In this document: piece by piece, positions 6,541-20,925 of the stretch | Numbering within the stretch: the stretch's first letter is position 1 | Layout of the letters: the number at the start of each line of letters is the position of its first letter | Virus record (IMG/VR): IMGVR_UViG_3300035670_005308 | Location: 1 to 23,878 of that record | Origin: a virus | Reading direction: 5' to 3' (one strand) | DNA length: 23,878 bases | Translations under genes and position numbers: made by a program | Notes under the pieces: model-generated | What the model saw: only the letters and a program-made list of their open reading frames with translations | Databases searched by the model: none | What the model was told of the DNA's origin: nothing

Positions 6541-6569
6541 TTGACAATAGTCTAATTGTATAGTATAAT
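6541..6569 (+). promoter_or_regulatory. Consensus sigma70 promoter for the tailspike
   Basis: TTGACA at 6541-6546 and TATAAT at 6564-6569 are separated by exactly 17 nt: both hexamers match the bacterial sigma70 consensus fully. The expected transcription start is near 6576, giving a leader of about 21 nt before the tailspike ATG at 6597. A small inverted repeat ACAAT/ATTGT (6544-6548 and 6555-6559) overlaps the -35 box and spacer and could be an operator, which is speculative. Confidence 0.85.
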
Positions 6570-6596
6570 AGAGATACACTTAAAGGCCATTATAAC

Positions 6597-10386: not shown

Positions 10387-10417
10387 AAAGGCCCCAATTA
10401 AGGGGCCTTTCTTTTTA
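10387..10417. terminator. Bidirectional intrinsic terminator
   Basis: A perfect 9-bp stem AAAGGCCCC/GGGGCCTTT (10387-10395 and 10402-10410) has a 6-nt loop. On the plus strand it is followed by CTTTTT; on the minus strand it is followed by TTTTTC. It ends both the rightward late transcript and the leftward early transcript. The two convergent stop codons (10383-10385 and 10415-10417) are only 29 nt apart. Confidence 0.92.
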
Positions 10418-12301
10418 CAGCTCGCAATTACCTCCTGTACAGGCCAACGTCTGTACACCTTCCGTATTGTCCTGCCCCTTGTCATACAGCGGGAGCACAG
10501 ACCAGTCCAGAGCCTTTGGCATTTTCTTCAACCACTCCTCATACTGCTCTTCCGTGATGGCCTGATACGGCGCCTGCTTATAACTGTGGTCATCTCGTGG
10601 CAGGAAGCTAACACCACTAAGTTCATCAAAGTGGTCCCACACAAACTGACCAAGCTGTAGGAACTCATCGTCCTTATAGAACACAGTGATGGACGGCTTG
10701 TGTTCACACCAATTGGCCTGATAGGACAGCCACAGATTCATCTGGTCAATGGCCGTAACATCCTTGGTACACAGCGCGCCGAGCGGTGCCTTCTGCGGGA
10801 AATAGAACACCATCTGACTGTCAGGCTTATTGACGCAAGGCTCGTGTGGAATCCCTTGGTCAATCAGAAATTGGCAGATAGGGTCTTTGATGTCGTTACG
10901 GACAGAACGCAGGTAGTACGGAGAGTAGCGAGGGTGGATACCGCTGGCGCTGTTCACAAGCTGGCTAACGGTGCCGGAAGGCTTCACGCAGGTAATTGCA
11001 GTGCTGGCTGGAATGCCAAGCATTGACGCCCATTTGCTGTTCGTAATAACAGCAGTCTCCTCCATTTCCTTCAGCCAGGAGACATGCTGAGGGTGCTTAG
11101 GATTGTTGAGTACATTGTGATCGCAGATGCCGGTGAGACTAACCCCCAGCAGCCGCTCCTCTTCCGTATTACGCTGCCATTGCTTGCGGAGATAGCGGAA
11201 ATTAGTAAGCGTACTCTGAAGCGTGCCAAGAATCGTGGCAATCTCTACCTTCGCGCACAGGTCATTCAAGTCATCCGTAGAGCGAACAACAACTTCGCTC
11301 AGATTGCAGAACTGATGCGGTCGGAGAATGATCTCGCTGCAAGGGTTGGTTCCGAATTCATAGTCAGTGTCACGACGGCCGTTCTTGGCAGCAGCATTCT
11401 TACTGGCCTGACGATTAAAAATACCACGCTCACCGCTGTACGATTCGTACAGGCTCTTCCATTCATTCATGAACGTAGGGAAGCCGGGCTTACTCTCGTA
11501 CACGGCGCTGTTGTTGGCAAGGGCACGGTGAGGGTGCGTCTTCCACCAAGTACCGCTCTTGCACATCCGCATCTCTTCATCATTAAGATCAGAGAGACTG
11601 ATGAGGGCAGAGCGACGGACGCCGCCGACAACAACAATCTCAGCAATCTTGCAAACCAAATCGTGACATTCAACAGGGCGCAGCTTACGGCCAACAGCGT
11701 TAAGGACCATGTTCACAGTGAAATTAAACAGGTCGTTCAGGGGGCCGGGGCCAGAGGCACGGCCGCCAAACGTCTTCAGACGAGCACCAGCAGGACGCAC
11801 CTTGCTAGTATCCCACTTCGGAATCTTACCGGCCCACAGCATAGACAGCAGTTCACGGAAGGCAGAGGCCCACCCAATTTTGCTGTCAGCTACAACAATG
11901 GTGCTGTCGGTGCGATGGAATTCATCGGGCAGGGAGGGAAGCTGATTGGTGTAGCGGCTCTCTACGCTGAAGCCAACACCCGTGCCGCACATTAGGACAT
12001 AGAGGATTTCATCAAAATCTCGCAGCGACTCAATCACCGTATAAGAGCAATTGAAAGCAGCTACGTTGTCCCGCTTCAGGGCCTCACCAGCCGTCATCAA
12101 CGTACGCATTGACGGCATGATTTCATGACTCTTAATAGACTCGCCAATTAGATTGAGAGTTTTGTCGTTTATCTCAGGCAGATGTTCTTTCCAAAACCCA
12201 ATCAGACGATTAACAGTTTCTTCCCATGATTCACGACGCCCCTTCTCGTCGTCAAAACGGGCGTAGCGGGAGGCTGCAATATAGCGGGAATAGTCTTCCA
12301 T
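10415..12301 (-). CDS. nrdJ: Class II ribonucleotide reductase, adenosylcobalamin-dependent
   Basis: This encodes 628 residues. Conserved reductase residues: C85 (AFNCSY) and C332 (FCNLSEV), the redox pair; C321 with N319 and E323 in GTNPCSEI, giving the thiyl-radical cysteine; the glycine-rich CGTGVGFS at 105-112; PSGTVSQLVN at 441-450; and the C-terminal shuttle pair C621/C626 (ACTGGNCEL). The pattern and single-gene form fit the monomeric B12-dependent class II enzymes (Lactobacillus RTPR type), though this one is about 100 residues shorter. It reduces ribonucleotides to deoxyribonucleotides for phage DNA synthesis. No NrdB or NrdG partner is visible, as expected for class II. AAGGAG lies five nucleotides from the ATG. 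It has its own promoter (12363-12391) with a hairpin in the leader. Last gene of the leftward transcript. Confidence 0.9.
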   Translation of the reverse strand: MEDYSRYIAASRYARFDDEKGRRESWEETVNRLIGFWKEHLPEINDKTLNLIGESIKSHEIMPSMRTLMTAGEALKRDNVAAFNCSYTVIESLRDFDEILYVLMCGTGVGFSVESRYTNQLPSLPDEFHRTDSTIVVADSKIGWASAFRELLSMLWAGKIPKWDTSKVRPAGARLKTFGGRASGPGPLNDLFNFTVNMVLNAVGRKLRPVECHDLVCKIAEIVVVGGVRRSALISLSDLNDEEMRMCKSGTWWKTHPHRALANNSAVYESKPGFPTFMNEWKSLYESYSGERGIFNRQASKNAAAKNGRRDTDYEFGTNPCSEIILRPHQFCNLSEVVVRSTDDLNDLCAKVEIATILGTLQSTLTNFRYLRKQWQRNTEEERLLGVSLTGICDHNVLNNPKHPQHVSWLKEMEETAVITNSKWASMLGIPASTAITCVKPSGTVSQLVNSASGIHPRYSPYYLRSVRNDIKDPICQFLIDQGIPHEPCVNKPDSQMVFYFPQKAPLGALCTKDVTAIDQMNLWLSYQANWCEHKPSITVFYKDDEFLQLGQFVWDHFDELSGVSFLPRDDHSYKQAPYQAITEEQYEEWLKKMPKALDWSVLPLYDKGQDNTEGVQTLACTGGNCEL

Positions 12302-12317
12302 ACATCTCCTTAGACAG

Positions 12318-12337
12318 AAAACCCCTCCGAAGAGGGG
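12318..12337 (-). terminator. UUCG-loop terminator/attenuator in the reductase leader
   Basis: On the minus strand CCCCTC-TTCG-GAGGGG forms a 6-bp stem capped by the very stable C(UUCG)G tetraloop, followed by TTTTCTGTCT. On the plus strand no T-run follows, so it works leftward only. It lies downstream of the promoter at 12363-12391 and 16 nt upstream of the reductase start codon. It may end the upstream replication transcript, attenuate the reductase, or both. Confidence 0.7.
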
Positions 12338-12362
12338 CTGTAAATAATGCTGTTGGACCTAT

Positions 12363-12391
12363 ATTATACCACACCTACTAATTATTGTCTA
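12363..12391 (-). promoter_or_regulatory. Sigma70 promoter for the reductase
   Basis: On the minus strand: TAGACA (12386-12391), a 17-nt spacer, and TATAAT (12363-12368) preceded by TGG, giving an extended -10 element. Predicted start is about 12356, so the leader to the reductase ATG is about 55 nt and contains the UUCG hairpin. The -35 overlaps the last three bases of the DUF3310 gene. Confidence 0.8.
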
Positions 12392-12838
12392 GGCGTATTC
12401 CCAATCAACAATCTCACCTTGCAGACTTCTGTCATTTCCAACCCACTTCAAATCGCCTGCAAGGAAGGGGCCTCGCTTGTCTTTTTGTCCAGCTAAATAA
12501 ACATAGACACTGGCATCAGGATCGGGGAAGGGCTTGAAGTATTTAGGAGTTATTCGCGCAGACTCATAATATGGAACCTGCGTCACTTCTTCCTCAAACG
12601 TATCCTTACCAATCTCATCCTGTTCAGCAAGAATCAAATTGATGTAATTCCTGGCCTTCTTCAAATCCTCCCAGCTATTCTTCTCAGGAGCACGGAGAAT
12701 GTATTTGATGACATTCCCCATCCGGAAGCCGAAGCTGCTATTCACAGGCTGCTTAGCCTCCCACTTCTTGAGGACATCGTCAATAATATCAATGCACTCA
12801 AGCCCGCAAATCTGATAATGCTTAGGGGGATTACTCAT
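12389..12838 (-). CDS. DUF3310 / SaV-like protein, possible nucleotide kinase relative
   Basis: This encodes 149 residues. The N-terminal half has the DUF3310 pattern: HYQICGLECIDII near residues 7-19, then FGFRMGNVIKYILRA (about 41-55), KNSWEDLKKARNYINLIL (about 58-75). This domain is common in phages; as I recall, T7 gp1.7, a nucleotide kinase, carries a related region, which would fit a place next to ribonucleotide reductase in nucleotide supply. The C-terminal half (76-149) has no family I recognise. It overlaps the upstream 58-residue gene by 8 nt. Confidence 0.75.
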   Translation of the reverse strand: MSNPPKHYQICGLECIDIIDDVLKKWEAKQPVNSSFGFRMGNVIKYILRAPEKNSWEDLKKARNYINLILAEQDEIGKDTFEEEVTQVPYYESARITPKYFKPFPDPDASVYVYLAGQKDKRGPFLAGDLKWVGNDRSLQGEIVDWEYA

Positions 12839-13747: not shown

Positions 13748-13911
13748 TGCTCTTTCTCCCTGATGTCTTCAGGTAAATCAACAATAGAAACACTCAATCC
13801 GTGTGTTGCTGTAATAGGGATAATCATCTCCTGACTCTGCATCTTGGCTGACAGCAGCAGGAACAGAGAGCTACAGGCCGATGCTAACAGTTGATATTCT
13901 TGTTCATCCAC
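13744..13911 (-). CDS. Unknown small protein (55 aa)
   Basis: I place the start at GTG 13911, which has GGAGAG about six nucleotides upstream and overlaps the stop of the HNH gene by 8 nt; an ATG at 13959 would put 16 odd residues inside the HNH gene and lacks a ribosome site. The product is 55 residues: a hydrophobic helix near residues 8-22 (LLASACSSLFLLLSA), then a beta-like segment (MIIPITATHGLSVSIVDLP) and a charged end. It might be membrane-associated. No family is recognised. Confidence 0.6.
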   Translation of the reverse strand: MDEQEYQLLASACSSLFLLLSAKMQSQEMIIPITATHGLSVSIVDLPEDIREKEH

Positions 13912-14284
13912 TCCGACTCTCCGCTGTAATTTCCTTGTGGCAGGGCTTACAGACAACACGAAGCCCTTCTTTCTCGCAGAACAGACGCTCTACAAACCCC
14001 GGCAAATCAGCGTATGACTTGAGGCTGCCGCAGGGAACAATGTGATCCACTTCAACATTCTTCTGCATGTGCCATTGCTTACAAACAGCACATAGGAATT
14101 CCCATTTCTGCTTGATGTTAGGGCCTGTGTATTTCCGCCTGGCATCCTTGAGAGCAGAATAGCGAGGCTTCCATCGCTGATACTTAGCCCTTAGTCCTGA
14201 TCGGACAAACCCCCAGAAAGCTGCTTCTGTGTACGTCCCATCTCCCCTGGTTTTTGCAACCCTAACACGCTTCAATCGCCCCAT
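13904..14284 (-). CDS. HNH endonuclease with zinc knuckles
   Basis: This encodes 126 residues. The N-terminal 60 are basic and Trp/Arg/Lys-rich, likely for DNA contact. A zinc-stabilised HNH follows: CAVC (C65, C68), VEVDHIVPCGS (D80, H81 catalytic), then GLRVVCKPCHKEIT (C112, C115, H116). It is probably a free-standing homing endonuclease or a nicking enzyme; it lies between replication genes, as such enzymes often do. It overlaps the upstream 60-residue gene by 13 nt. The ribosome site is weak. Confidence 0.85.
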   Translation of the reverse strand: MGRLKRVRVAKTRGDGTYTEAAFWGFVRSGLRAKYQRWKPRYSALKDARRKYTGPNIKQKWEFLCAVCKQWHMQKNVEVDHIVPCGSLKSYADLPGFVERLFCEKEGLRVVCKPCHKEITAESRSG

Positions 14285-15285: not shown

Positions 15286-15723
15286 TTATTTTGCATTTAA
15301 TGCCTCCCCGTTAGCTTTATGCCAATCTCTATGGTGTTTAGAACACAACCACCGAACCTCCAACGGTTTAGCATAATCATCGTGATGGGCGTGGCTTCTC
15401 GCTTCCCCACACTCTTCGCACGGTTTTCTAAACAATTTCCCATCTCTAATGCTATTAGAAATCATAGCGTGGGCTTTCTTTTTTCTTGGGAAGTTTTCTT
15501 TATACGCTTTAGACACCCTCTTCTTGAGGGCTTTTCTTTCTGGAGTCAATGCCCTTTCTTTGTCGTAGCGTATATAGTATTCTTTTTTCTTCTCTCTGTT
15601 TTGTTTGATGTCGATTTTGCAGCACTCTTTACACTTATTAAGATGCCCATCCGCCATCATGCTGTGAGCATAAAAATAAGAGATGTCTTTCTCTTCCCCG
15701 CACTTGAAACAGACCTTCGACAT
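15286..15723 (-). CDS. HNH endonuclease with N-terminal zinc module
   Basis: This encodes 145 residues from ATG 15723, which overlaps the SSB stop as TGATG (a TTG one codon upstream is less likely). N-terminal zinc module: C5/C8 (CFKCGEEK) and C31/C34 (CKEC). The middle is a Lys/Arg/Glu-rich helix (36-90). The C-terminal part has C102/C105, AHHDDYAKPLEVRWLC (H113, H114, D115, C127) and KHHRDWH (H130, H131, H135), the arrangement of the NUMOD/HNH-type phage endonucleases. The gene is visibly more AT-rich than the SSB gene beside it, which suggests a recent mobile arrival. Probably a free-standing homing endonuclease. Confidence 0.82.
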   Translation of the reverse strand: MSKVCFKCGEEKDISYFYAHSMMADGHLNKCKECCKIDIKQNREKKKEYYIRYDKERALTPERKALKKRVSKAYKENFPRKKKAHAMISNSIRDGKLFRKPCEECGEARSHAHHDDYAKPLEVRWLCSKHHRDWHKANGEALNAK

Positions 15724-16373
15724 CAAAATGGTTCTGTGTCTGGGAAGTCATCGTCCTGATTCTTCGTCGCAGCGGCAGGCTTCCGAGAGGCAGTGCTGAT
15801 AGAACTCGCTGAAGTGGCACCCCGGCTTGCGGAAGCCTTTGGCGTCGCGGGCTTTGATTCGCCCGTCTCGGCGGCGGCTCCGCTCATCCGGCTCTCGTAC
15901 TCCACGTTCATTTTCTCGGACAACTTCAGAATTTCCCACGCTGCATCCTCTACGTTATCAATCTTACCTGCAACGAAAAGCTGTACAGCATTGGTCAGTG
16001 CATGGCCAATCTTAATTCCCTTGTCGCCGCTTCCGTAACTGGCACGGGCAGCAGGTGCCGCCTTAACACTGTCCCCAGCAGCAGGCGGAGAAACAGCACC
16101 GCTACTGCCCTTCAGGATGGTGATGTTGCCTTCCTTGTCATAGAAGGTCTTGCCCTGATATTCACGGCTCTTCACCATGAACTTCACCGTCATACCTTCC
16201 TTCAGGTCCACCCACTCCTGGCCATGCTTGACGCTGACAACAGGCTTCTTACCCTTACCAACACCGAAGAAATCACCGTTAATCTTGAGGCTACGCTGCC
16301 AAGTATTGCCCCACTGGTCAGCGGGGATTTCCTTAGTTTGAATCTTCTCAATTACGCCCTGTACAAAATCCAT
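15723..16373 (-). CDS. ssb: Single-stranded DNA-binding protein
   Basis: This encodes 216 residues. The N-terminal 90 form a beta-rich OB-like domain (VQGVIEKIQTKEI, SLKINGDFFGVGKG, WVDLKEGMTVKFMVKSREYQG). A Pro/Ala/Gly linker (91-118) leads to a helical section (119-165), followed by a Ser/Ala/Thr-rich linker (166-205). The end is the acidic tip DDDFPDTEPF, the hallmark of phage and bacterial SSB tails that recruit polymerase and other enzymes. The start overlaps the upstream stop as TAATG. The position beside the exonuclease and polymerase supports the call; the fold itself is judged from pattern only. Confidence 0.82.
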   Translation of the reverse strand: MDFVQGVIEKIQTKEIPADQWGNTWQRSLKINGDFFGVGKGKKPVVSVKHGQEWVDLKEGMTVKFMVKSREYQGKTFYDKEGNITILKGSSGAVSPPAAGDSVKAAPAARASYGSGDKGIKIGHALTNAVQLFVAGKIDNVEDAAWEILKLSEKMNVEYESRMSGAAAETGESKPATPKASASRGATSASSISTASRKPAAATKNQDDDFPDTEPF

Positions 16374-16573: not shown

Positions 16574-16779
16574 TCATCTACTCCTTCTTTAATCCTGTCT
16601 TCCAATGCTACAATTTGATCTGTGGTGAAGAAATTCGTTACGTCATCGTCGTCTAGCTCCACATGCAGCACATCAACTTCCCCGTCCTCATACTGTACAT
16701 AATACACCAACACTTCAATGTCGGCTGTCTCATCCAGCACAGTGAGGGAGGCTGGGAGCCGAATCGTGCTTGGTTGCAT
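16570..16779 (-). CDS. Unknown small acidic protein (69 aa)
   Basis: This encodes 69 residues, rich in Asp and Glu (EYEDGEVDVLHVELDDDD at 31-48 as read, then a C-terminal helix). The acidic middle might mimic DNA or bind a basic partner, which is speculative. It is the first gene after the promoter at 16813-16821, with AAAAGGAG at 16791-16798 about 11 nt from the ATG. It heads a run of coupled genes that includes SSB. No family is recognised. Confidence 0.7.
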   Translation of the reverse strand: MQPSTIRLPASLTVLDETADIEVLVYYVQYEDGEVDVLHVELDDDDVTNFFTTDQIVALEDRIKEGVDE

Positions 16780-16812
16780 TAGAAGGCAATCTCCTTTTGT
16801 GATTGTATCTAT

Positions 16813-16821
16813 ATTATATCA
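16813..16821 (-). promoter_or_regulatory. Extended -10 promoter before the SSB operon
   Basis: On the minus strand TGATATAAT gives a perfect -10 with a TGn extension; no good -35 is visible (TAGATT at best). Predicted start is about 16806, 27 nt before the ATG at 16779. The bases after the -10 (TATAATATAGATACA) match those at the tailspike promoter closely. Confidence 0.7.
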
Positions 16822-16838
16822 GTACCGGAATGAAAAAT

Positions 16839-18584
16839 CTAGTGTGTCATAGCCCAGGTCAACCCTCTCTTCACCTCCCCGTCTAATGGGCATCGCAGCT
16901 TGTAATACTCCTGAGTCCACTTCAAGCCCTCAATGAACGCTTGCCCAGCAGCCTCTGCTTGCGAAGCGTCAGCCTCAATCTGGCACTCATCGTGAAAGTG
17001 CCCAACCTGCTTGGCGTATATTCCATCACGTAACCAAAGCTGGTGCATCCTCGCCGTAGCTGTTTTGACAACAACGGAACCAGCGCACTGAAGCAGGCTG
17101 TTAAGGGCGGCGTGTTCCGAACGGATCGGTATTTTCCTCCCGTCCAAACCAAGTAGGTATCCACGCGACGCCGCACTCGTAACCTTTGTAAGTAGGGTAG
17201 CATATGCAGGGAGATTGTCCAGAAATCGTCCCCGTAAAATTGCCCCGTCTTTCTTCGTCCCGCCAACCACCGACCCAATCTTTGCATCACCGGCTCCGTA
17301 AAGAAGAGCGTAGATAAACGTCTTTGCCTGATCTCGTGTCTCTAGACCAGCGAGATTTTGATTATATGTGTGCACATCACCTCGGAGTATCTGTTCCGTG
17401 AAAGCCATATCTCCCATGTAATGCGCGAGCATTCGTAGTTCAAGGCCCGACGCATCAACACCAACAAGCGTCTTCCCATCTCCCACCGTAAAGAGACTGC
17501 GGCATTCATGGCCGTAGAGAATCTTAGGGTGGGCCTTTGGGACATTAACTACATTCCGATGTCGCATTCTCCCGGTAGGTGTCGCTTGAGGAAAAGCTCT
17601 CGCTTCAATCCGTCCATCTGGCCTAACATTCTCAAGCCACCCCTCAATCTCACTTCGGCGCTTAAGCAGTTTGAATCGCTTTGCAATCTTACTGCCAGCT
17701 TCTCCGACTGCCGATTCAAGGCTTTCTTCCGTGACCTTGGGCTTGCCTGTCTCCGTGTATTCCGTGGGTTTCCAGCCATAGGATTGTAGTAGCTCTGCTA
17801 GCTGATCGCGGCTGCTAAGATTAGGAAACTCAAACACAACAGGAGAATACGGACCAGCCACATGTGCACAACCCTCTTCTCCATATCGTTCAACGACGAT
17901 GGCTTTGTGCTTTCCGTCTTTCTTGAATGGCGCTTCAACAGTGGCCCCCTTCTTCTTGCATTTCCGATTAATAATCGTCTCAAGCTGTGAGTCAATGGCT
18001 GCCACTTCAACATCAATATCAACAACAAGCTGCTTGGCTTTCTCTACATCAAACTTCCATCCGTCTACAGCCTGCTGGTGCATGATTTCAGCGATGCGAT
18101 GCTCAAGACGTAGAGCGCGGCTCCAGTCGTGGCTGTCCAGTTCTTTCTTGATGTGCTGCCATAGGCGAATAGTTACGGCTACGTCTTGCTTACAATATTC
18201 ACCCATTCGCTCAGAGTATACGTCCCACGGTCCTTGGTAATCTCCCTTGAACACTCCAAGGCGCTTTCCCCAGGCTTCAAGGCTGTGACCTCCTTCTGCA
18301 TCGGGCCAGAGGAGCGAGGTGCAGGTAAGCGTGTCAACAACACGCCCGCTGAAGCGTAGTTGAGCAAGGCGCCGGAGTACAGGAAGATCATAAGACAGCA
18401 CGCCGTGCCCGCAAAGCACAGAAGCAGAACTGAGTCTCTGAACAGCTTCGCTAATTTCTGAAGGGCCGTAAAGAACGATTCCATTGTCGTCTCCAATTGA
18501 AATGCAATGAATTAGGTCAGGCGTCAGCCCGTTGGCTTCGATGTCGAACCAGAGAAACTTTCGATGTACTGAATCATCTTGCAT
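16839..18584 (-). CDS. DNA polymerase, family A (T7 gp5-like)
   Basis: This encodes 581 residues. N-terminal 3'-5' exonuclease: FDIEANG (D14, E16), LSYDLPVL (D66) and YCKQDVAVT (D134). Polymerase motif A is VDASGLELRMLAHYMGD (D377); motif B is RDQAKTFIYALLYGAG (R417, K421, Y425, Y429); motif C is GHFHDECQIE (H531, D532, E533). Y425 sits where T7 has Tyr526 and E. coli Pol I has Phe762. Compared with T7 gp5 (704 residues) it is shorter in the exonuclease domain and in the thumb insertion that binds thioredoxin (residues about 205-257 here). The start lies 61 nt inside the end of the endonuclease VII-like gene; no other usable start codon precedes the exonuclease motif. Confidence 0.95.
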   Translation of the reverse strand: MQDDSVHRKFLWFDIEANGLTPDLIHCISIGDDNGIVLYGPSEISEAVQRLSSASVLCGHGVLSYDLPVLRRLAQLRFSGRVVDTLTCTSLLWPDAEGGHSLEAWGKRLGVFKGDYQGPWDVYSERMGEYCKQDVAVTIRLWQHIKKELDSHDWSRALRLEHRIAEIMHQQAVDGWKFDVEKAKQLVVDIDVEVAAIDSQLETIINRKCKKKGATVEAPFKKDGKHKAIVVERYGEEGCAHVAGPYSPVVFEFPNLSSRDQLAELLQSYGWKPTEYTETGKPKVTEESLESAVGEAGSKIAKRFKLLKRRSEIEGWLENVRPDGRIEARAFPQATPTGRMRHRNVVNVPKAHPKILYGHECRSLFTVGDGKTLVGVDASGLELRMLAHYMGDMAFTEQILRGDVHTYNQNLAGLETRDQAKTFIYALLYGAGDAKIGSVVGGTKKDGAILRGRFLDNLPAYATLLTKVTSAASRGYLLGLDGRKIPIRSEHAALNSLLQCAGSVVVKTATARMHQLWLRDGIYAKQVGHFHDECQIEADASQAEAAGQAFIEGLKWTQEYYKLRCPLDGEVKRGLTWAMTH

Positions 18585-19003
18585 AGTATCTCAGCAGATT
18601 CCTCAACCTTACCTAATGTGGTGTTACATCTATTACAAAGCAACTTCCTGACGACGTTGGTAGTGTGGCAATGGTCAACTGCAAGCATCCTGTTCAAACT
18701 TTCCTTCTGACCGCATATAGCACACACCCAGCCTTGATCGTCTCCCATCTTTTTGTACTGCTCTAAAGTCAACCCGTAATGCTTCTTAAGACTGAACTTC
18801 ATACTGGCGAGCTTCTTATTATCTCTAGCTGCCGGAGTCATACTTCGATAGGTGTTTAGATTGCTTGTTTTACAGCACACTTTGCACCAAGTTCTAAAAG
18901 CGGATAACCCGAACTGAGTACGGCCACGCAAACTATTTCGCCTATAGAAATCAGAAGTTGGTTTTTCTTCTTTACACTTTGAACATATCTTTAACAAAGT
19001 CAC
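18524..19003 (-). CDS. Endonuclease VII-like nuclease with N-terminal zinc module
   Basis: This encodes 159 residues from a GTG at 19003. N-terminal zinc module: C7/C10 (CSKCKEEK) and C40/C43 (CKVC). The C-terminal domain has CAIC (C94, C97), AVDHCHTTNVVRKLLC (D110, H111, H113) and NRCNTTLG (C126, N127), the recombination endonuclease VII family (T4 gp49 type) with zinc knuckles and the DHxH core. It could resolve branched DNA, the job gp3 does in T7, or be a homing enzyme. Its last 61 nt overlap the polymerase start, and it is more AT-rich than its neighbours, favouring a mobile origin. The ribosome site is poor. Confidence 0.82.
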   Translation of the reverse strand: MTLLKICSKCKEEKPTSDFYRRNSLRGRTQFGLSAFRTWCKVCCKTSNLNTYRSMTPAARDNKKLASMKFSLKKHYGLTLEQYKKMGDDQGWVCAICGQKESLNRMLAVDHCHTTNVVRKLLCNRCNTTLGKVEESAEILCKMIQYIESFSGSTSKPTG

Positions 19004-19283: not shown

Positions 19284-20827
19284 TAGAACTCCCGTTCAAC
19301 AGCCGTCAGAATACCTGTATGGGGATTGACCTCAAGAACATCCCCCTTGCCCGTCGTGCCATACTCGCGCGAAAGTAGTAGGTCTACCCTAGTATAACGC
19401 AATTGCTTGTCCTCTTCAATCTGCTTGCTCAGGCCAATCATGTTCCAGCAAAGCTGCTCGAAAGCACCAGACCCACGACCGTCCGTATCCTGCGTCTCCA
19501 CCCAGAACGGATATCGGATGTTACCCTCCTTGTCTCTGGGCGGCGTTACATTAGGCCGCTTGATGTGGCTGACAGCAATAATGTGCATCCCGGACTCACG
19601 GACAAAGGCAGCTAGGTCAGTGAGCAGCTTATCAATATCCTGCCTCTCGTTCGTACTGCTCATACCGCTGAAGATGTAAGACAGATGGTCAATAATAGCG
19701 AACCTAGCGCCACGGACATAGCAATGCCGGAGCGACTGCATAAGCTGGTCGGGGCCAATATGTCCCTTATCAGCAGTGCCGAACATAGCGACAGCAGGAT
19801 CAAGCAAATCCCGTTTAACATTCTCTACAAACTCCCGACTCAGACGGCTGGGATTGACACGAAATTCCGGCAGATGAATCTTGGCATGGCGGGCAACAAA
19901 GCTCTGGGTGGTTTTCTTGTTGTCCTCCTCTAGATAGAACCCGACAGTAGGTTCCTTGTGAAGCAGCAGGTGGTAGTTGATTTCCTTACACAGCGTGGTC
20001 TTACCGCACTTCGGCGGGGCAAGGATGATAGTAAGCTCCCCCTTGCGAAACCCTCGCATCATCTTCATGAGCTGGGGGAATGCCTCAATACGCAGGCCCG
20101 GCTGAATAGGGGTCAGGATGGTGTCTACATCCACCCCACCAGGATTGATGCACTCCGGCTGATATTCCTTGCTGAAGGACAACAGCTTGTGAAGCTGCTT
20201 GCTGTCCTTGAGCAGAAGCTCATTAGGGTCTTTGACAGGCAGCAGGACATCGTGGAAATTCCCCAGAAGCACGGAACACTGCCCAACCCCCTCCCGCCCA
20301 TCCTCGTCATTATCGAAGCACAGGACGGGAATCTGGAAGCCCTTGACCCACTCAATGTTGCTGGCGATGTGGCTGGCTGCATTGCCTGCCCCAAGGCTGA
20401 TGGACACGACATTCGGCTTTACGTTATTCGCCTTGCCCCAATTCTCCCACAGAGCCTGCCAAGCAGAGGGAGCATCGTACATCCCCTCCACGATAAACAG
20501 CTTCTTACCGCCAGAAGAGCAGGCTGCCTGACCGAACAGATCGCAGTGAATATCTACCTGCCCGACAGTGCTAAACCCATCCTTCTTGGACCGACGAAGG
20601 TCACGACGGACATACCCAACCACCTTCCCCGCCTTGGTCTGCGGGAAGTAGTGGGCAATCACCGTGCCCGTCACCTCCGAATACTCTGAACGAATACCGA
20701 AATGCTGGCATGTCTCTTCAGAGAGTCCACGCTCAGGGATAGCCCGGATAGGGAACCCCTGGATTTGATCGACAGTAATATCGGTAAACACTTTCTTCTC
20801 TTTGAATTTAGACATGTGTATTGACAT
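19283..20827 (-). CDS. Primase-helicase (T7 gp4B-like, no zinc domain)
   Basis: This encodes 514 residues. TOPRIM primase domain: FIVEGMYDAPSAW (E114, D118), VVSISLGAGNAAS and LCFDNDEDGREG (D172, D174, D176). RecA-type helicase domain: Walker A LAPPKCGKTTL (270-278), Walker B FAIIDHLSYI (376-385), IIAVSHIKRP (416-425), RGSGAFEQLCWNMIGLS (451-467) and a late SREYGTTGKGD likely holding the arginine finger. The order equals that of T7 gp4. The cysteine-rich N-terminal zinc domain of gp4A, needed for template recognition in priming, is missing, so length and start match gp4B. ATG 20827 has no Shine-Dalgarno; ATG 20815 is an alternative. Confidence 0.93.
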   Translation of the reverse strand: MSIHMSKFKEKKVFTDITVDQIQGFPIRAIPERGLSEETCQHFGIRSEYSEVTGTVIAHYFPQTKAGKVVGYVRRDLRRSKKDGFSTVGQVDIHCDLFGQAACSSGGKKLFIVEGMYDAPSAWQALWENWGKANNVKPNVVSISLGAGNAASHIASNIEWVKGFQIPVLCFDNDEDGREGVGQCSVLLGNFHDVLLPVKDPNELLLKDSKQLHKLLSFSKEYQPECINPGGVDVDTILTPIQPGLRIEAFPQLMKMMRGFRKGELTIILAPPKCGKTTLCKEINYHLLLHKEPTVGFYLEEDNKKTTQSFVARHAKIHLPEFRVNPSRLSREFVENVKRDLLDPAVAMFGTADKGHIGPDQLMQSLRHCYVRGARFAIIDHLSYIFSGMSSTNERQDIDKLLTDLAAFVRESGMHIIAVSHIKRPNVTPPRDKEGNIRYPFWVETQDTDGRGSGAFEQLCWNMIGLSKQIEEDKQLRYTRVDLLLSREYGTTGKGDVLEVNPHTGILTAVEREF

Positions 20828-20925
20828 TCAGAAAAGATATGTTATACTAAATAATACATATAAATATATAAATAAAGAATGGAAGTTCTCCTGTTGTCAT
20901 ACGAATAGTTTAGCATGCGACTAGG
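20828..20925. other. AT-rich intergenic region, candidate promoter and origin
   Basis: This is the largest gap on the leftward side. On the minus strand a possible sigma70 promoter reads TTGACG (20931-20936), 18-nt spacer, TAAACT (20907-20912); TATAAC at 20841-20846 is a second -10-like element. Bases 20848-20880 are almost pure A/T, mostly TA-rich. A plus-strand TTGACA (20821-20826), 16-nt spacer, TATACT (20843-20848) points the other way with no gene to serve. An AT-rich unwinding element beside the primase-helicase is compatible with a replication origin, which is inference. Confidence 0.4.

Follow-up and report, generated by a model that had tools for sequence, protein, structure and literature searches.

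A terminator-like CUUCGG hairpin between the promoter and the ribosome site of a phage class II ribonucleotide reductase gene

Introduction

Why would a phage place what looks like an intrinsic terminator between the promoter and the ribosome site of its own ribonucleotide reductase (RNR) gene? RNR genes are common in phages and the control of their expression has been little described; the main text of a survey of phage RNR genes mentions neither promoters nor terminators (PMC3653736). The question is raised by an IMG/VR virus record that was analysed over its entire length of 23,878 bp (hereafter, the window). Its minus strand carries, in this order, a promoter, a C(UUCG)G hairpin, the tail UUUUCUGU, the ribosome site AAGGAG and the ATG of nrdJ. 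If it is true that the terminator sets or senses the dose of the reductase, the leader would provide a small, cloneable handle on the tuning of dNTPs by phages, and one reporter design would suffice to test the idea, since the arrangement recurs before class I as well as class II genes.

The nrdJ Locus

10415-12301, minus strand: nrdJ, predicted class II (adenosylcobalamin-dependent) RNR of 628 aa, from its phrog_367 match and conserved cysteines
12389-12838, minus strand: DUF3310 gene, upstream of nrdJ, annotated as 'nucleotide kinase' in many phages
10387-10410, no strand assigned: terminator at which the early (minus) and late (plus) units meet, d'Aubenton-Carafa score +25.9

The first-pass annotation had named the gene behind this leader a B12-dependent reductase, and the protein comparisons agree. 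The predicted product is assigned to the class II RNRs (NrdJ/RTPR) from a full-length match to phrog_367 (588 bits over residues 3-627) and from five cysteines, C85, C321, C332, C621 and C626, that are invariant in the nine proteins compared. Its best NCBIfam match is TIGR02505 RTPR, at 297.8 bits and below the cut-off of 340.

The minus strand holds the replication genes (primase/helicase, DNA polymerase A, exonucleases, HNH endonucleases, DUF3310 and nrdJ), and the plus-strand virion genes converge with them at the terminator at 10387-10410. In its gene order the phage resembles the Zobellviridae, such as Methylophilales phage MEP402 and Lentibacter phage ICBM2, whose layout is similar and whose nrdJ likewise lies near the convergence point. 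An intergenic gap of 87 nt separates the stop of the DUF3310 gene (12389) from the start of nrdJ (12301), and transcripts that read through from DUF3310 also meet the hairpin.

The window has some other features worth recording. Amid the replication genes, 13904-14284, 15286-15726 and 18524-19003 encode one HNH endonuclease (phrog_1985) and two small cysteine-rich endonuclease-like proteins, possibly homing endonucleases; the library scan covered the first of these ORFs alone. An AT-rich, 98-bp gap before the helicase gene (20821-20925) contains a promoter-like site on the opposite strand (20821-20848, plus; near-consensus, 11/12, extended -10), and may function as an origin or antisense promoter. 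In the virion-gene half, the 815-aa protein encoded at 72-2519 had no match among 50,697 phage records.

The Promoter and Its Start Region

12363-12391, minus strand: predicted sigma70-type promoter, TAGACA-17-TGGTATAAT, extended -10, matching the consensus at 11/12 positions
12352-12358, minus strand: start region GTCCAAC, in register with record L266 and, as GTCC, with record L171 (see below)
from 12369, minus strand: -10/start motif, nrdJ copy, GTATAATATAGATACAA with at most 3 mismatches
6563-6579, plus strand: second copy of the motif at the same threshold, before the tail fibre gene and without a hairpin behind it
16803-16819, minus strand: third copy at the same threshold, before a small gene starting at 16779 and without a terminator-like hairpin behind it

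The element at 12363-12391 has near-consensus -35 and -10 hexamers at a spacing within 16-18 nt and is predicted to be a sigma70 promoter, as the first-pass annotation had proposed for this stretch of the minus strand. Chance alone would give 0.18 matches of 11/12 or better per window, and 0.017 when an extended -10 is included. What makes the promoter well supported is the recurrence of its -10/start motif, which is present three times in the window (0.03 copies expected), always intergenic and always oriented with the gene that follows. Of the three copies, only that of nrdJ has a terminator-like hairpin behind it. Transcription is predicted to start near 12356 (T12357, C12356, C12355, A12354).

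The host-type promoters at 6541-6569 (plus) and 16813-16841 (minus) share with the nrdJ promoter the bases that follow the -10, and one of the two is a perfect TTGACA-17-TATAAT. Evidently, to judge from these elements, host-type promoters of one make, a promoter family, are used by this phage.

The Hairpin and the Ribosome Site

12318-12337, minus strand: 6-bp GC-rich hairpin with a UUCG loop, then UUUU; intrinsic-terminator-like by its fold and terminator score
12311-12306, minus strand: Shine-Dalgarno sequence AAGGAG of nrdJ

The core stem pairs CCCCUC (12337-12332) with GAGGGG (12327-12322) around the UUCG loop (12331-12328), and two weak outer pairs lengthen it to 12339/12320. The tail after the stem is UUUUCUGUCU (12321-12312), in which UUUU is followed by CUGUCU up to 12312. 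The ribosome site comes next, at a rather short spacing of 4 nt from the ATG (12301-12299). The order promoter, terminator-like hairpin, ribosome site and gene, first read from the sequence in the first-pass annotation, is confirmed.

The predicted folding energy of the 42-nt segment containing the hairpin is -13.9 kcal/mol, where its shuffles give -6.8 +/- 2.2 (z -3.3; 2/200); for the hairpin alone it is -12.5 kcal/mol. With the 6-bp stem its d'Aubenton-Carafa score is +10.3; when the two weak outer pairs are taken as stem it drops to -10.9, because these pairs consume U residues. The T7 Te terminator, in what we take to be its sequence, scores +3.2 by the same method. As a class, terminator-like sites are in mild excess between 12000 and 23878 (16 found, 9.9 +/- 3.5 expected). 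With a U tract as short as four U before CUGU, and a score that depends on where the stem is cut, the nrdJ hairpin has the appearance of an intrinsic terminator of moderate strength and of the phage CUUCGG type, plausible rather than strong.

Being a C(UUCG)G-capped stem in an intergenic position, the hairpin is one of the phage intercistronic CUUCGG hairpins, and taken alone this part of the leader is ordinary. Such hairpins are described as common in phage intergenic regions in PMC8948821 (which cites Tuerk et al. 1988), and they stand directly before ribosome sites, with no convincing promoter, in Otagovirus, Schitoviridae, Nankokuvirus, Mydovirus and Rosemountvirus phages. These facts favour a plain interpretation that is possible, if somewhat unlikely: the hairpin is an ordinary intercistronic terminator of the replication unit and serves the DUF3310 transcript, by ending it or shielding its 3' end; lack of room forced the nrdJ promoter into a place upstream of the hairpin, and the arrangement has no regulatory meaning. 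This account is weakened by the recurrence, described below, of the promoter-first order before RNR genes elsewhere. A BLAST search of the leader against phages returned hairpin look-alikes and no promoter-plus-hairpin leaders. The identical 24 bases of hairpin and tail are also found in two unrelated contigs, L014 (at a gene end) and L015; these gene-end or intergenic sites were not considered counterparts.

Search for a Switch in the Leader

The first-pass annotation had read the layout as that of an attenuator. By position this stands, since a predicted intrinsic terminator lies between the promoter and the first gene; the regulated cis switch that the term implies finds no support in the leader sequence. 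The stretch from start to stem pairs with the arms of the hairpin at only -1.8 and -2.2 kcal/mol (-12.5 for the hairpin), so it offers no cis antiterminator. The best pairing offered by the upstream coding region is weakly better than that of shuffles (P 0.04); in the predicted fold of the read-through RNA the hairpin still forms and is not displaced. Since the leader contains no competing fold, the terminator should form by default. No ATG that could open a leader peptide occurs between start and stem. An Rfam scan of the leader found neither a cobalamin riboswitch, for which the leader of about 55 nt had already been judged too short, nor any other family.

The distance of about 43 nt from promoter to terminator would also suit a small regulatory RNA of that length, with nrdJ expression as incidental read-through. 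We regard this as very improbable. Besides its own site, the 5' part of such an RNA matches the window over only about 9-11 nt, with no strong target, and no Rfam family exceeds its threshold: the near-match to RsmY (18.9 bits, cut-off 57) was dismissed as chance.

Leaders of Other Phage nrdJ Genes

No close relative of this phage was found. In IMG/VR searches with single proteins the best identities were 57% for NrdJ and 44% for the DNA polymerase, with nothing for DUF3310; an alignment-based search with NrdJ reached 61%, and GenBank phages likewise included no close relative. At 57-61% NrdJ identity the hairpin is absent and nrdJ usually abuts its neighbour. The regions upstream of nrdJ were read at 99 other phage loci and in about 50 relatives of locus L118. 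In 61 of the 99 loci the gap to the neighbouring gene is 15 nt or less, and the idea of a hairpin linked to nrdJ as such was rejected, as most nrdJ genes abut the upstream gene. In none of these approximately 150 leaders does a near-consensus promoter precede a U-tailed hairpin that is followed by a ribosome site and nrdJ, and among the 1.2 Mb of loci compared before the gene-blind scan described below the full layout was present in the window only. A sigma70-type promoter before nrdJ is in itself not rare (L007-L011, L135, L150), and GTCC is missing from these other phage nrdJ promoters. Three loci (L146, L148, L205) whose nrdJ gap contains a hairpin that is T-tailed or strong were set aside because no near-consensus sigma70 promoter precedes it.

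In L118, L188 and L190 the region upstream of nrdJ has a strong promoter and, immediately after it, a hairpin of 11 pairs. This hairpin was not accepted as a counterpart, since it has no U tract and has disappeared from L189 and L191, which are close relatives. A promoter-proximal hairpin of this kind would fit the proposal that the nrdJ hairpin stabilises the 5' end of the nrdJ mRNA and terminates little, as does the statement in PMC8948821 that the T4 gene 32 transcript is stabilised by a CUUCGG hairpin in its leader. We consider a stabilising role improbable here: the T tract is kept in all copies of the promoter-first layout, the nrdJ mRNA would carry about 18 unpaired bases at its 5' end, and the L118-type hairpin is itself not kept in L189 and L191.

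Recurrence Before Class I Reductase Genes

L171, 265-347; L266 and L267, about 1422-1503: promoter, CUUCGG terminator-like hairpin and ribosome site before class I RNR genes, with the TATAAT-N4-GTCC start region

IMG/VR was scanned, blind to gene identity, with the pattern TATAAT...CTTCGG-N5-TTTT...AGGAG. Eighteen of the 33 matches have true stems, and in most of the 18 the TATAAT lies at the end of the upstream gene. One match, L171, from an unrelated phage lineage, has an intergenic extended -10 promoter (TTGCAA-17-TGGTATAAT, 10/12), and its leader precedes the small subunit gene of a class I RNR (nrdB), with the large subunit next. The layout is also kept in L266 and L267, two relatives of L171 (74-75% protein identity) that were not selected by the pattern, and the stem shows a compensatory change from A-U to G-C. 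Among the six pairs of the three-sequence stem comparison, four differ on both sides and all remain paired, counts that are inflated by selection. TATAAT-N4-GTCC is common to the window, L171 and L266, with GTCCAAC in register in the window and L266 (P about 0.001 by shuffling), and the exact TATAATN4GTCC occurs once per record in the window, L171, L266 and L267, each time at the RNR leader.

L171 was chosen for its hairpin, T tract and ribosome site, so that the free evidence consists of the gene identity, the quality of the promoter, the GTCC and the conservation in L266 and L267. Since the last two are nearly identical, only two lineages are represented, the window and the L171 group, and the GTCC register is a post hoc observation. 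In bacterial and archaeal genomes, TATAATN4GTCC...CTTCGG...TTTT was found in 92 stretches; five of the 80 that were fetched have the stem, and none of the five is followed by a ribosome site and a gene, which suggests that the combined motif is not a common host element. The layout itself is genuine and exceeds what chance would give. Its retention at 74-75% protein identity speaks against a hairpin that merely ends the upstream transcript.

The recurrence before unrelated RNR genes raises, without establishing, the possibility of a dedicated, perhaps nucleotide-sensing, RNR leader. In one such scheme, read-through of the hairpin or the choice of start within GTCC varies with nucleotide pools or with an antitermination factor of phage or host, raising nrdJ expression when needed. 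This is unlikely on present evidence, although the same TATAAT-N4-GTCC before class I genes, once per record and at the RNR leader only, points in its direction, as do the pyrimidine start regions associated with nucleotide-sensitive start choice at pyrC and pyrD, according to titles cited in PMC5730371. It is opposed by the failure to find an antiterminator in cis, a leader peptide or a riboswitch in the leader, by the other phage nrdJ promoters without GTCC, and by the two lineages and post hoc register just mentioned. A broader conjecture, in which the extended -10, GTCC and CUUCGG terminator of unrelated phages sense pyrimidine pools through start choice, read-through or both, and so tie the output of class I and class II reductases to their precursors, is more speculative still.

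A Leaky Terminator as the Favoured Explanation

The explanation we favour, at somewhat less than an even chance, is that a leaky intrinsic terminator between the gene's own sigma70 promoter and its ribosome site passively trims nrdJ transcription. Host sigma70 would start nrdJ transcripts from this promoter near 12356. Some of these polymerases would stop in the U tract near 12314, as would some that enter from the replication genes, and the remainder would continue into nrdJ. The net effect would be a fixed, passive cut in nrdJ transcription from both sources, presumably serving to limit the dose of the reductase; an RNA of about 43 nt would arise as a by-product. It has been reported that the lambda tR2 terminator is fully efficient beyond about 27-30 nt from the ribosome, and that ribosomes mask it when closer (PMC4824070). 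The nrdJ hairpin, with about 50 nt between it and the DUF3310 stop codon, is outside this masking range and should therefore also act on upstream transcripts.

In favour of the leaky terminator are the threefold promoter motif, the stable hairpin with its U tract, and the same order, with a compensatory stem change, in L171 and L266/L267. Against it, a weaker promoter alone would be a simpler route to a lower dose, the U tract is short and the score depends on the stem cut, and no close relative was found that could reveal selection on the nrdJ copy.

Comparison with Known Systems

Bacterial operons such as pyrBI and trp have transcription attenuators that resemble the nrdJ leader in placing a terminator between promoter and first gene; the nrdJ leader differs from them in that no leader peptide, antiterminator or ligand site was found in it. 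The T4 gene 32 leader likewise has a CUUCGG hairpin before a phage gene of DNA metabolism, described as an mRNA stabiliser, whereas the nrdJ hairpin has a U tract and stands directly before the ribosome site. The intercistronic CUUCGG hairpins of phages are the same hairpin, often with a T tract and right before a ribosome site, but in the nrdJ leader a near-consensus promoter lies upstream, and its own transcripts must pass the hairpin. The L171, L266 and L267 leaders serve class I rather than class II genes, with another stem sequence, a weaker -35 and a shorter distance from the -10 to the hairpin (about 12-18 nt, against about 25 in the nrdJ leader); they nevertheless share with the nrdJ leader an extended -10 TATAAT, GTCC four bases on, a CUUCGG terminator, a ribosome site and an RNR gene.
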